33,142 nt of DNA from a virus, in the IMG/VR virus record IMGVR_UViG_3300013126_000126, positions 1 through 33,142 of that record; one strand, written 5' to 3'. A program made the position numbers and the translations under genes. The notes below the pieces were generated by a model that was not told the DNA's origin, searched no databases, and was given only the letters and a program-made list of their open reading frames with translations. The stretch's first letter is position 1. Each line of letters opens with the position of its first letter. Shown in pieces: positions 11,761-14,582 of this stretch.

Positions 11761-11933
11761 TGTTCATTGCAAAAAGAAGAGGAAATTTTATGAACAATGT
11801 TCTTTACTTTCAAGAGGACACTCAATGGTCTGAAAGTAGAGAAACTGCCAAAAAATTTACCACTGAAAAAGAGGCAGTTCAAGAATCTGATTTCACTGGG
11901 TTATATGATATAGAAGCAGAATATGTTAATTAA
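11760..11933 (+). CDS. Small hypothetical protein (57 aa)
   Basis: The ATG at 11760 overlaps the preceding stop by one base, and the reading frame of 57 codons ends at TAA 11931-11933, overlapping the gp17 start at 11923 by eleven bases. The tiling on both sides supports a real coupled gene. The protein begins basic (MFIAKRRGNFMNNVLYF) and continues acidic, with a segment ETAKKFTTEKEAVQES that looks helical. I do not recognise a family. Its short mixed beta/alpha pattern resembles many small phage accessory proteins. Confidence 0.6.
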   Translation: MFIAKRRGNFMNNVLYFQEDTQWSESRETAKKFTTEKEAVQESDFTGLYDIEAEYVN

Positions 11934-12828
11934 TGATATACAATTAAAAGTTGGTGACGCTTACTTATCGAATCCAAACTTAAAAAAAGCAAACACCTCG
12001 ATCCAATTCACCCAAGAACAGATTAAAGAGTTCATTAAGTGTAAAGAGGATCCAGTATACTTTGCAAGAAACTATATCAAGATCGTTTCTCTGGATGAAG
12101 GTCTTGTCAAGTTTGACATGTATCCATTTCAGAAAAAATTAATTCAACGTTTTCATAAACATCGTTTTAATATTTGCAAGATGCCCCGTCAGACGGGTAA
12201 GTCAACAACTTGTATTTCATATCTATTACACTATGCGGTGTTCAATGATAATGTAAATATAGCCATTTTGGCCAACAAGGCATCCACGGCAAGAGATCTT
12301 CTTGGAAGATTACAACTTGCGTATGAAAATCTGCCAAAGTGGATGCAACAGGGTATTCTAGCGTGGAACAAAGGGAGTTTAGAATTAGAAAATGGCAGTA
12401 AGATATTGGCAGCTTCTACATCTGCAAGTGCTGTCCGAGGCGGTTCGTATAATGTTATCTTCCTCGACGAATTCGCTTTCATTCCAAACCATATTGCAGA
12501 CCAATTCTTTGCATCTGTTTATCCTACTATTTCTTCTGGTAAAAGCACAAAAGTAATCATGGTCTCAACCCCACATGGGATGAATCATTTTTACAGATAT
12601 TGGCATGATGCAGAAAGAGGAAAGAACGAATATATCGCAACTGACGTGCATTGGTCAGAAGTTCCAGGTAGAGACGACGCTTGGAAAAAACAGACCATCG
12701 CAAACACTTCTGAACAACAGTTCAAGGTTGAGTTTGAATGTTTAGGTGGAGATACTATAATTGAAATAAAAGATGATGATGGAATCACTCAAAAAATTTC
12801 TATGGAAGATTTGTATCAACGTTTGTGA
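11923..12828 (+). CDS. 17: Terminase large subunit gp17, N-terminal half (ATPase) fused to N-intein
   Basis: Residues 1-272 are the TerL ATPase domain: Walker A MPRQTGKST (87-95), Walker B VIFLDE (178-183), and the coupling motif STPHG (215-219). Residues 273-301 are the N-terminal fragment of a split intein, beginning at Cys273 directly after VEFE, then a stop. The nuclease domain is encoded separately at 13728-14582. In the mature motor, gp17 pumps DNA through the portal using ATP and cuts the concatemer. Here full-length TerL (272 + 284 = 556 residues; T4 has 610) would require protein trans-splicing. The ATG lies eleven bases inside the end of the preceding small gene. Confidence 0.9.
   Translation: MLINDIQLKVGDAYLSNPNLKKANTSIQFTQEQIKEFIKCKEDPVYFARNYIKIVSLDEGLVKFDMYPFQKKLIQRFHKHRFNICKMPRQTGKSTTCISYLLHYAVFNDNVNIAILANKASTARDLLGRLQLAYENLPKWMQQGILAWNKGSLELENGSKILAASTSASAVRGGSYNVIFLDEFAFIPNHIADQFFASVYPTISSGKSTKVIMVSTPHGMNHFYRYWHDAERGKNEYIATDVHWSEVPGRDDAWKKQTIANTSEQQFKVEFECLGGDTIIEIKDDDGITQKISMEDLYQRL
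12739..12825 (+). other. N-intein (29 residues) of split TerL intein
   Basis: The segment begins with the nucleophilic Cys and reads CLGGDTIIEIKD, then ISMEDLYQRL before a stop. C-x-x-GDT-(I/M)-(I/V)-E is intein block A. The short length and the EDLY(K/Q)RL ending resemble the N-fragment of AceL-TerL, as I recall it: an atypically split intein whose N-part is about 25 residues. Canonical split inteins such as Npu DnaE have N-parts near 100 residues, so this split position is unusual. Confidence 0.9.
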
Positions 12829-12839
12829 GTTCTTTGGAT

Positions 12840-12847
12840 TATAAATA
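12840..12847 (+). promoter_or_regulatory. Late promoter TATAAATA inside the fractured terminase locus
   Basis: A perfect late octamer lies in the 28-base gap between the N-intein stop and the endonuclease ATG. The ATG is only nine bases beyond the octamer, so a transcript starting the usual few bases downstream would be almost leaderless. Confidence 0.65.
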
Positions 12848-12856
12848 ATAATAAAA

Positions 12857-13426
12857 ATGTATTATATTTACTTTCTTAAAAATTTAAATGGAGAAGTCAA
12901 ATACGTTGGGCAAACTCAAAATTTAGATATCAGAAAAAGAGAACACAAAAGAAATAAACCACAACATACTTTTGAAATTTGTGAAGAAATTGATATTCCT
13001 GATATAGCCAAAGAAAAGGAGATTTTTTATATAGAAAAATTTGATACATTTAAAAATGGATGGAATAAATCTACAGGTGGAGAGGGTTTTGATACCTATG
13101 AAAGAAAAGGAATTGGAGGAGTGAAGAAAGGCAATATCCCTTGGAACAAAGGAATTAAGAATTGTTTTTCTAAGGAAACCGTGGAAAAAATGAGCAACTC
13201 TAGAAAAGGTAGAGTTTTTAACAGAAAAATTGATGATGATCAAATAAGATCAATAAGAAAACTATATAATGAAAAACCAAATTTACAGAATGTTGGAATG
13301 ACTATGAGAAATGGTAAAAAAATGTCATATGTTCAGGCATTTTGTAAAGAATACGCTGAACAATATAATTTAACCCCCCAGGGATTGAAAAGGATTGTTT
13401 TAAACGAGTGTTGGAAAAATGTTTAA
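12857..13426 (+). CDS. Free-standing GIY-YIG homing endonuclease with NUMOD3 motif
   Basis: The 189-residue protein carries a GIY-YIG nuclease domain at residues 1-80. It has YIY (3-5), YVG (16-18), Arg26 in IRKREHKR, and likely catalytic Glu55 before IFYIEKF. The typical NGWNKSTGGEGF follows. Residues 93-119 (GNIPWNKGI, FSKETVEKMSNSRKGR) are a NUMOD3 DNA-binding motif. The C-terminal part (SYVQAFCKEYAEQYNLTPQG) looks like a helical DNA-binding module. It would cleave an uninterrupted gp17 allele and spread the insertion. The gene is very AT-rich against its neighbours, which suggests acquisition. It overlaps the C-intein ATG by eight bases and has its own late promoter. All key residues appear intact. 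Confidence 0.88.
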   Translation: MYYIYFLKNLNGEVKYVGQTQNLDIRKREHKRNKPQHTFEICEEIDIPDIAKEKEIFYIEKFDTFKNGWNKSTGGEGFDTYERKGIGGVKKGNIPWNKGIKNCFSKETVEKMSNSRKGRVFNRKIDDDQIRSIRKLYNEKPNLQNVGMTMRNGKKMSYVQAFCKEYAEQYNLTPQGLKRIVLNECWKNV

Positions 13427-13727
13427 ACTTAATAAAAATATTGAAGTAAAAACTCCCGATGGGTTTAAATCTTTTTCTGGAATTCAAAAAGTTTATAAAC
13501 CTTTTTATCATTGGATAATATTTGATGATGGATCAGAAATAAAATGTTCTGATAATCATTCATTTGGAAAAGAAAAAATCAAGGCATCAACAATTAGAGT
13601 TGATGACTTTTTACAAGGAAAAAAGGTGGTATATAATGAAATAGTAGAAGAAGGAATATATCTTTATGATTTACTTGATGTTGGTGAAAATAATTTATAC
13701 TATTCAAATGATATAATATCACATAAT
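13419..13727 (+). other. C-intein (103 residues) of split TerL intein
   Basis: It starts MFKLNKNIEVKTPDGF and carries FDDGSEIKCSDNHSFG (residues 35-50; block B-like with Ser-Asp-Asn-His). It then has YLYDLLDV (81-88; block F) and DIISHN (98-103; block G with penultimate His and terminal Asn). Cys follows as the +1 residue at 13728-13730. Order and sequence resemble the long C-fragment of AceL-TerL as I recall it. No endonuclease domain is inside it; the nuclease is encoded by the separate upstream gene. Confidence 0.9.
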
Positions 13728-14582
13728 TGTGAATTTTTAGGATCTGTTGATACTTTGATCAATGCATCAAAACTCCGCACCATGGTTTATGATGACCCGA
13801 TCAAAAAGAATAAGGGTCTAGACATTTATCAAGAACCTCTCGATAAACACGACTATATCATCACAGTTGACGTGGCTCGTGGAGTTGGTATTGATTACTC
13901 TGCATTTGTTGTTGTTGACATCACGACATTTCCACACAGAGTGATTGCAAAATACAAGAATAATGAAATCAAACCAATGTTGTTCCCGAGTATTATTCAA
14001 GAGGTTGCAAAGGGATACAACAATGCATTTATTTTATGCGAGGTAAACGATATTGGTGATCAAGTTGCAAGTATTTTGCATTATGATTTGGAGTATAACA
14101 ACATCCTAATGTGTTCGATGCGAGGTCGAGCTGGTCAGATCGTGGGTCAAGGATTTTCTGGGCAGAAAACCCAAATGGGTGTGAAGATGTCGAAGGTGGT
14201 GAAGAAGATTGGATGTTCAAACTTAAAGACGTTAATCGAAGATGATAAACTTATTTTTACTGATTATGACATTATATCGGAACTGACAACGTTCATTCAG
14301 AAACACAATTCTTTTGAAGCAGAAGAGGGGTGCAACGATGACCTAGCCATGTGTCTCGTTATCTATGCGTGGCTGGTCGCCCAAGACTACTTTAAAGAAC
14401 TCACGGAACAAGATGTCAGAAAGCGTATTTACGAGGATCAGAAGGATCAAATAGAACAGGATATGGCTCCATTTGGTTTTATTCTAGACGGCACAGAAGA
14501 ATCATCATTCGTGGATGCTGACGGAGATCGATGGTATGCAGATGAGTATGGAGATCGCAGTTTTATGTGGGAGTATCGATGA
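13419..14582 (+). CDS. 17: Terminase large subunit gp17, C-intein fused to C-terminal half (nuclease)
   Basis: Residues 1-103 are the C-intein and residues 104-387 the gp17 nuclease domain, starting at Cys104 (CEFLGS). The nuclease has the RNase H-like acidic set: Asp151 in TVDVARG, Glu208 in LCEVNDIGD, and Asp307/308 in GCNDDLAM. These correspond to the T4 gp17 catalytic triad. The ORF has its own ATG, eight bases inside the endonuclease gene, so translation is probably coupled to the endonuclease. Trans-splicing with the product of 11923-12828 would give intact TerL. The ORF ends in ATGA, overlapping the next gene. Confidence 0.9.
   Translation: MFKLNKNIEVKTPDGFKSFSGIQKVYKPFYHWIIFDDGSEIKCSDNHSFGKEKIKASTIRVDDFLQGKKVVYNEIVEEGIYLYDLLDVGENNLYYSNDIISHNCEFLGSVDTLINASKLRTMVYDDPIKKNKGLDIYQEPLDKHDYIITVDVARGVGIDYSAFVVVDITTFPHRVIAKYKNNEIKPMLFPSIIQEVAKGYNNAFILCEVNDIGDQVASILHYDLEYNNILMCSMRGRAGQIVGQGFSGQKTQMGVKMSKVVKKIGCSNLKTLIEDDKLIFTDYDIISELTTFIQKHNSFEAEEGCNDDLAMCLVIYAWLVAQDYFKELTEQDVRKRIYEDQKDQIEQDMAPFGFILDGTEESSFVDADGDRWYADEYGDRSFMWEYR

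Follow-up and report, generated by a model that had tools for sequence, protein, structure and literature searches.

What has happened to a large terminase gene (terL, gene 17) whose coding sequence is spread over separate open reading frames (ORFs), with an endonuclease gene between the pieces? We addressed this question in IMG/VR virus record IMGVR_UViG_3300013126_000126, positions 1 to 33,142; this whole stretch of 33,142 nucleotides is called the window below. The window contains a T4-like structural gene block in which gp17 is split over three ORFs, each in a different frame. We are confident of an overall reading in which the locus is a mobile, fractured split intein that would home through its own endonuclease and that carries a copy of half its target site, a putative operator.

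The first ORF (11923-12828; all features described here lie on the + strand) codes for 301 residues. It joins the N-extein of TerL/gp17, residues 1-272 with the ATPase part (11923..12738; Pfam Terminase_6N, 1.3e-19; PHROG terminase large subunit, 1e-69), to a 29-residue N-intein (IntN, 12739..12825). IntN starts with the catalytic Cys1 at residue 273, and 28 more residues lead to a TGA stop codon at 12826-12828. The last ORF (13419-14582, 387 residues) opens with a 103-residue C-intein (IntC, 13419..13727), which has a block B-like CSDNH motif and ends in ISHN. The C-extein follows with Cys+1 (CEFLGS) and contains the nuclease part of TerL, including the stop codon (13728..14582; Pfam Terminase_6C, 1.3e-13). 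Between the two halves lies a gene of 189 codons for a GIY-YIG homing endonuclease (HEN, 12857..13426; Pfam GIY-YIG, 7.6e-7, above the curated cutoff; PHROG homing endonuclease, 2e-17). An earlier note on this DNA had described both terminase ORFs with their intein fragments and the complete endonuclease gene, and had expected a TerL of about 556 residues after splicing. Each of its coordinates and lengths agrees with the ORF translations, and the predicted spliced product has 272 + 284 = 556 residues.

We compared the window with about 85 related IMG/VR contigs, which contain 54 distinct complete cassettes. Dozens of independent contigs share the three-ORF layout, and in 53 of the 54 cassettes the HEN gene has exactly 189 codons with no internal stop. 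A sequencing or assembly artifact is therefore excluded. The IntC-TerL start overlaps the HEN stop codon by 8 nt (ATGTTTAA, 13419..13426) in nearly all of the cassettes, an arrangement that probably provides translational coupling.

The earlier note had proposed a search with both intein fragments and had suggested kinship with fractured genes and with the AceL-TerL intein. Both halves match the Cat intein pair of PDB entry 6dsl (IntC to 6dsl_B, CatC, E = 3.7e-55; IntN to 6dsl_A, CatN, E = 2.8e-12), and together with the separate HEN ORF this bears out the suggested kinship at the sequence level. Cat is a fast-splicing consensus intein designed from GOS-TerL and Ace-TerL, with an IntN of about 30 and an IntC of 104 residues; the IntN of AceL-TerL has 25 residues (PMC11766414). 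These matches place the intein among the atypically split TerL inteins, a known family with a solved structure. IntN residues C1, G4, T6, L25 and Y26 are invariant across eight diverse loci, and C43, S44, H47, H102 and N103 of IntC are invariant even when relatives from Vibrio phages are included. Cys1, SHN and CEFLGS are intact in 54/54 complete cassettes. We calculated dN/dS, the ratio of nonsynonymous to synonymous substitution, over pairs with dS of 0.1-1 among 34 complete loci. The values were 0.09 for IntC, 0.37 for IntN, 0.18 for HEN and 0.05-0.06 for the exteins, indicating that the intein halves and HEN are under purifying selection.

We infer that IntN and IntC trans-splice in this phage: two TerL polypeptides would be made, and their 29- and 103-residue intein parts would associate and splice to yield the 556-residue terminase. 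The three reading frames and compact junctions would also suit ORFs that act as separate subunits, or a break mended by an RNA intron or by ribosome hopping rather than by protein splicing. We give this explanation almost no credence. Separate subunits would not need intein halves, Cys1, SHN and Cys+1, all of which are under purifying selection, and the locus has no Rfam intron match, nor does the RNA of the junction show a conserved fold.

HEN residues Y5, Y16, R26, H30, E55 and N70 are invariant and include the catalytic Tyr, Arg, Glu and Asn of GIY-YIG enzymes. A search of PDB sequences with the HEN profile gave no significant match. In the AlphaFold model (mean pLDDT 73) the linker region is disordered, and the top structural matches in the PDB are to the I-TevI catalytic domain (probability 1.00). 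The earlier note had also assigned a NUMOD3 domain to the enzyme. This label did not hold up: Pfam gives no such match, and the WNKG...KGRVF stretch, which is disordered in the model, only resembles NUMOD3. A comparison with Rfam, made in case HEN lies in a group I intron or another kind of RNA element, gave no match. No tblastn match to the HEN family was found among 50,697 cultured phage records at 1e-5.

IntN, HEN and IntC form a unit of 989 nt, and several lines of evidence point to its movement between viruses. Between loci L015 and L006, identity is 97-100% across almost the whole 989 nt and drops to about 75% on both flanks, with the switch exactly at the intein ends; the L050/L056 pair shows a similar pattern. 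Distances among the cassette parts correlate with one another (r 0.74-0.89) more strongly than with those of the exteins (0.09-0.45), and in 548 of 561 pairs the cassette has diverged less than the exteins at synonymous sites. The cassette and extein trees reject each other's data (approximately unbiased test, 3e-6 and 5e-34, few replicates). All 80 of the nearest TerL-C relatives in IMG/VR lack an intein at this site; two of these empty genes were missed by the automatic rule and judged empty on reading. These comparisons indicate that the cassette moves horizontally as one unit.

This transfer pattern is the footprint expected of homing. We infer that HEN cleaves empty terL: it would cut the element-free gene at VEFE/CEFLGS, and repair would then copy in the whole unit. 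Alternatively, HEN could be inactive cargo in a cassette inherited vertically with terL, its patchy distribution arising from loss. The broken HEN of L036, in which a stop codon leaves 78 codons, and the absence of HEN from three cassettes would fit this explanation. It is nonetheless very improbable in view of near-identical cassettes in divergent terL genes, the sharp edges at the intein ends, the mutually rejecting trees and the HEN dN/dS.

The junction between IntN and HEN holds the feature that sets this locus apart. In all complete HEN-bearing cassettes of the set, the sequence directly after IntN reads like TGTGAGTTTTTTGGATTATAAATA, and in its first 16 nt the beginning of the C-extein is repeated (TGT GAA TTT TTA GGA T; C E F L G). 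The window's copy, a putative operator, lies at 12824..12839 (TGTGAGTTCTTTGGAT, compared with TGTGAATTTTTAGGAT at 13728). The copy is one base out of the IntN frame, so a TGA or TAA within it ends TerL-N; it supplies the IntN stop codon in nearly all 54 cassettes, the window's included. Since shuffling the insert of the window alone gave a p value of only 0.03 for the 13/16 match, we built a weight matrix of the target from the 80 empty sites and scanned both strands of the whole window. The half-site copy ranked second with 18.3 bits, after the true site (28.0) and well before the next match (7.9). It was the best internal match in 54/54 cassettes, at an identical offset in 52, and 0/1000 column-shuffled matrices reached this result. 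In L059 and L079 the copy is shifted 6 nt downstream after a small duplication and is hence not itself the stop codon.

Directly 3' of the copy, and 9 nt 5' of the HEN start codon, is TATAAATA (12840..12847), a T4-type late-promoter box. It follows the copy in nearly all of 41 distinct junctions. Four other TATAAATA boxes occur in the window (9746, 14847, 19449 and 20881), all on the + strand and 23-38 nt 5' of ORF starts. The distribution suggests that TATAAATA is the late-promoter motif of this phage.

Phage T4 offers a precedent for a homing-site-like sequence at the promoter of a GIY-YIG enzyme. The operator of I-TevI matches the homing site at 15 of 20 nt and overlaps the late promoter from which the enzyme itself is expressed; I-TevI binds there and cuts about 100-fold less, as a suitable cleavage sequence is absent (PMC2988022). 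By analogy, HEN may bind the 16-nt copy 5' of its own gene, probably without cutting it, since the N-extein half of the site is missing, and the bound enzyme would repress its own late transcription. We favor autorepression, with moderate confidence, as the most likely role of the copy, because the GIY-YIG enzyme, the partial target copy and the late box match the I-TevI layout in outline. Text searches of the literature turned up no paper in which an intein endonuclease represses itself. An RNA hairpin that hides the HEN start codon, as in T4, was considered and rejected: the junction folds no better than shuffled sequences and has no consensus structure.

The late box might instead serve chiefly to give TerL-C its own late transcript, with control of HEN secondary. 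Because its start overlaps the stop codon of HEN, TerL-C depends on upstream sequence for its expression. We judge this explanation improbable: L071 and L292, which lack HEN, have lost both the box and the copy, and their terL is still split.

The main rival to autorepression is that the copy is a mere fossil. In that case a free-standing HEN, already directed at terL as in collaborative homing, would have entered a mini-intein by short-homology recombination, bringing along part of its flank with no regulatory role. The copy begins exactly at codon +1, and composite mobile elements have been proposed to arise when an endonuclease-less element recombines with a free-standing endonuclease pre-adapted to the insertion site of that element (PMC2988022). 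Conservation of the copy argues for function, and we therefore consider a fossil unlikely, though it deserves more weight than the other rivals. At the 11 positions after the stop codon the mean p-distance is 0.069, compared with 0.49 at HEN synonymous sites, so that this non-coding sequence changes about seven times less, and no RNA structure was found that would explain this conservation. The deep relative L295, whose HEN is 52% identical, retains the box and also the copy, which is not needed there for termination since the stop codon is at another place. Once HEN is gone, the copy disappears (L071, L292) or is left as a decayed remnant (L026). The position of the copy next to the late-promoter box in nearly all cassettes also speaks against a fossil.

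Besides the fossil, three observations weigh against an operator. The deepest cassette, L296, has no half-site copy, so the operator is dispensable for the arrangement. We saw no co-variation of the copy with the C-extein codons of the same phage. With T4 spacing, the late transcript would begin about 4 nt 5' of the HEN start codon, which would make its leader unusually short. The autorepression reading has a further consequence. The copy carries the IntN stop codon in nearly all cassettes, and thus the split in the intein probably became fixed when this control element was gained. We hold in even balance the full proposal that the copied target became an operator on the HEN late promoter and that its gain broke the intein through the stop codon.

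The earlier note had suggested that the locus could be a step from a homing intein to a split intein, an idea that our comparisons support and sharpen. In Vibrio phages VP-1, K469 and 1.244.A an intein occupies the same TerL site; there the GIY-YIG enzyme continues the reading frame of IntN, and IntC lies in another frame that overlaps. The window's HEN has a homolog in the VP-1 enzyme (E = 2e-10), by way of which relatives were traced in cultured phages, but only in such diverged, fused forms. At the other end, three cassettes without HEN (L071, L292 and L026) fall in three separate HEN-bearing clades. L071 and the HEN-bearing L066 have IntC DNA that is 99.7% identical, and the sister of L026 is L036 with its shortened HEN. 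L292 was recovered by protein search; a DNA-pattern search for more HEN-less cassettes returned only the L071 contig again. Judged by their placement, the three losses are independent, and since all three cassettes remain split, HEN loss leaves the gene in two pieces as a plain split intein. The direction of HEN loss is rooted, while the order from fused to split is unrooted. The earlier note had none of the following: the half-site copy and late promoter that supply the stop codon, the horizontal spread as a unit, and the solved structure family of the intein.

Its assignment to a cyanophage is likely to be right: the TerL C-extein matches gp17 of Synechococcus phage S-BM3 at 80.6%, and gp23 of the window matches S-PRM1 at 79%.

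Other inteins are found in terL genes of the set. In four contigs (L042, 3761-7212; L089, L034 and L035) terL is fractured twice, into three ORFs. The second split intein sits at the Walker A site (RQTGK/S), with an IntN of 39 and an IntC of 115 residues, and has a 90-residue, Vsr/DUF559-like endonuclease; the GIY-YIG cassette is also present. Such a doubly fractured TerL would need two trans-splicing reactions without cross-reaction. A contiguous LAGLIDADG intein occupies Walker A in the same genes as the split cassette in L019, L027, L118 and L296 (33 loci including duplicates). In Escherichia phage vB_vPM_PD112 (L134, 115-2706), a cultured T4-like coliphage, the break in terL is at Walker B: a different atypically split intein is found there, and a TnsA-like endonuclease is encoded between its halves. 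The annotation of this phage lists only two terminase genes and one hypothetical protein. Contiguous mini-inteins that lack an endonuclease occupy the Walker B site of terL in Vibrio phage vB_VmeM-32 and phage SRB7757 (L133, L135).

Arguments about the origin of split inteins have so far drawn on isolated cases. At this single TerL site, HEN is seen fused to IntN (Vibrio phages), free with a promoter and target copy (the window and dozens of contigs), decaying (L036, L026), and gone with terL still split (L071, L292). If our proposal is true, regulation of a selfish gene created a naturally split intein, and loss of the endonuclease leaves an essential gene permanently in two pieces. The locus also opens the 16 nt of the half-site copy to a direct test.

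We compared the locus with known systems. Fractured genes, in which a split intein occurs together with a free-standing endonuclease, are a known class. Vsr-like enzymes reportedly occur in half of the loci of Dassa et al. 2009, and some of those loci are reported to have unspecified control elements. The present locus resembles them in that a split intein breaks an essential phage gene and an endonuclease gene lies between the halves, and would differ in its GIY-YIG enzyme and its target half-site copy at a late promoter. Its novelty within this known class would rest on the half-site operator. Cat, AceL-TerL and GOS-TerL (PDB 6dsl) are of the same intein family, in the same TerL protein, with an IntN of 25-37 and an IntC of about 104 residues. 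They are known as protein tools, whereas here the natural locus is seen with its HEN, promoter and half-site copy. The terL genes of VP-1, K469 and 1.244.A share the intein site and a GIY-YIG domain after IntN, but their HEN is fused in frame to IntN, with no stop and no half-site copy. PD112-type terL is likewise fractured, with a split intein and an endonuclease, but at the Walker B site and with a TnsA-like rather than a GIY-YIG fold. Finally, I-TevI of the T4 td intron is also a GIY-YIG enzyme with a homing-site-like operator at its own late promoter. That operator overlaps the promoter, whereas the window's copy abuts TATAAATA; here the element is an intein instead of a group I intron and has no RNA hairpin; and the copy covers only the C-extein half of the target and usually provides the stop codon that splits the intein. 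The locus would be a second, independent setting, in an intein rather than an intron, for the idea drawn from I-TevI of a homing enzyme that controls its own expression by means of a target copy.
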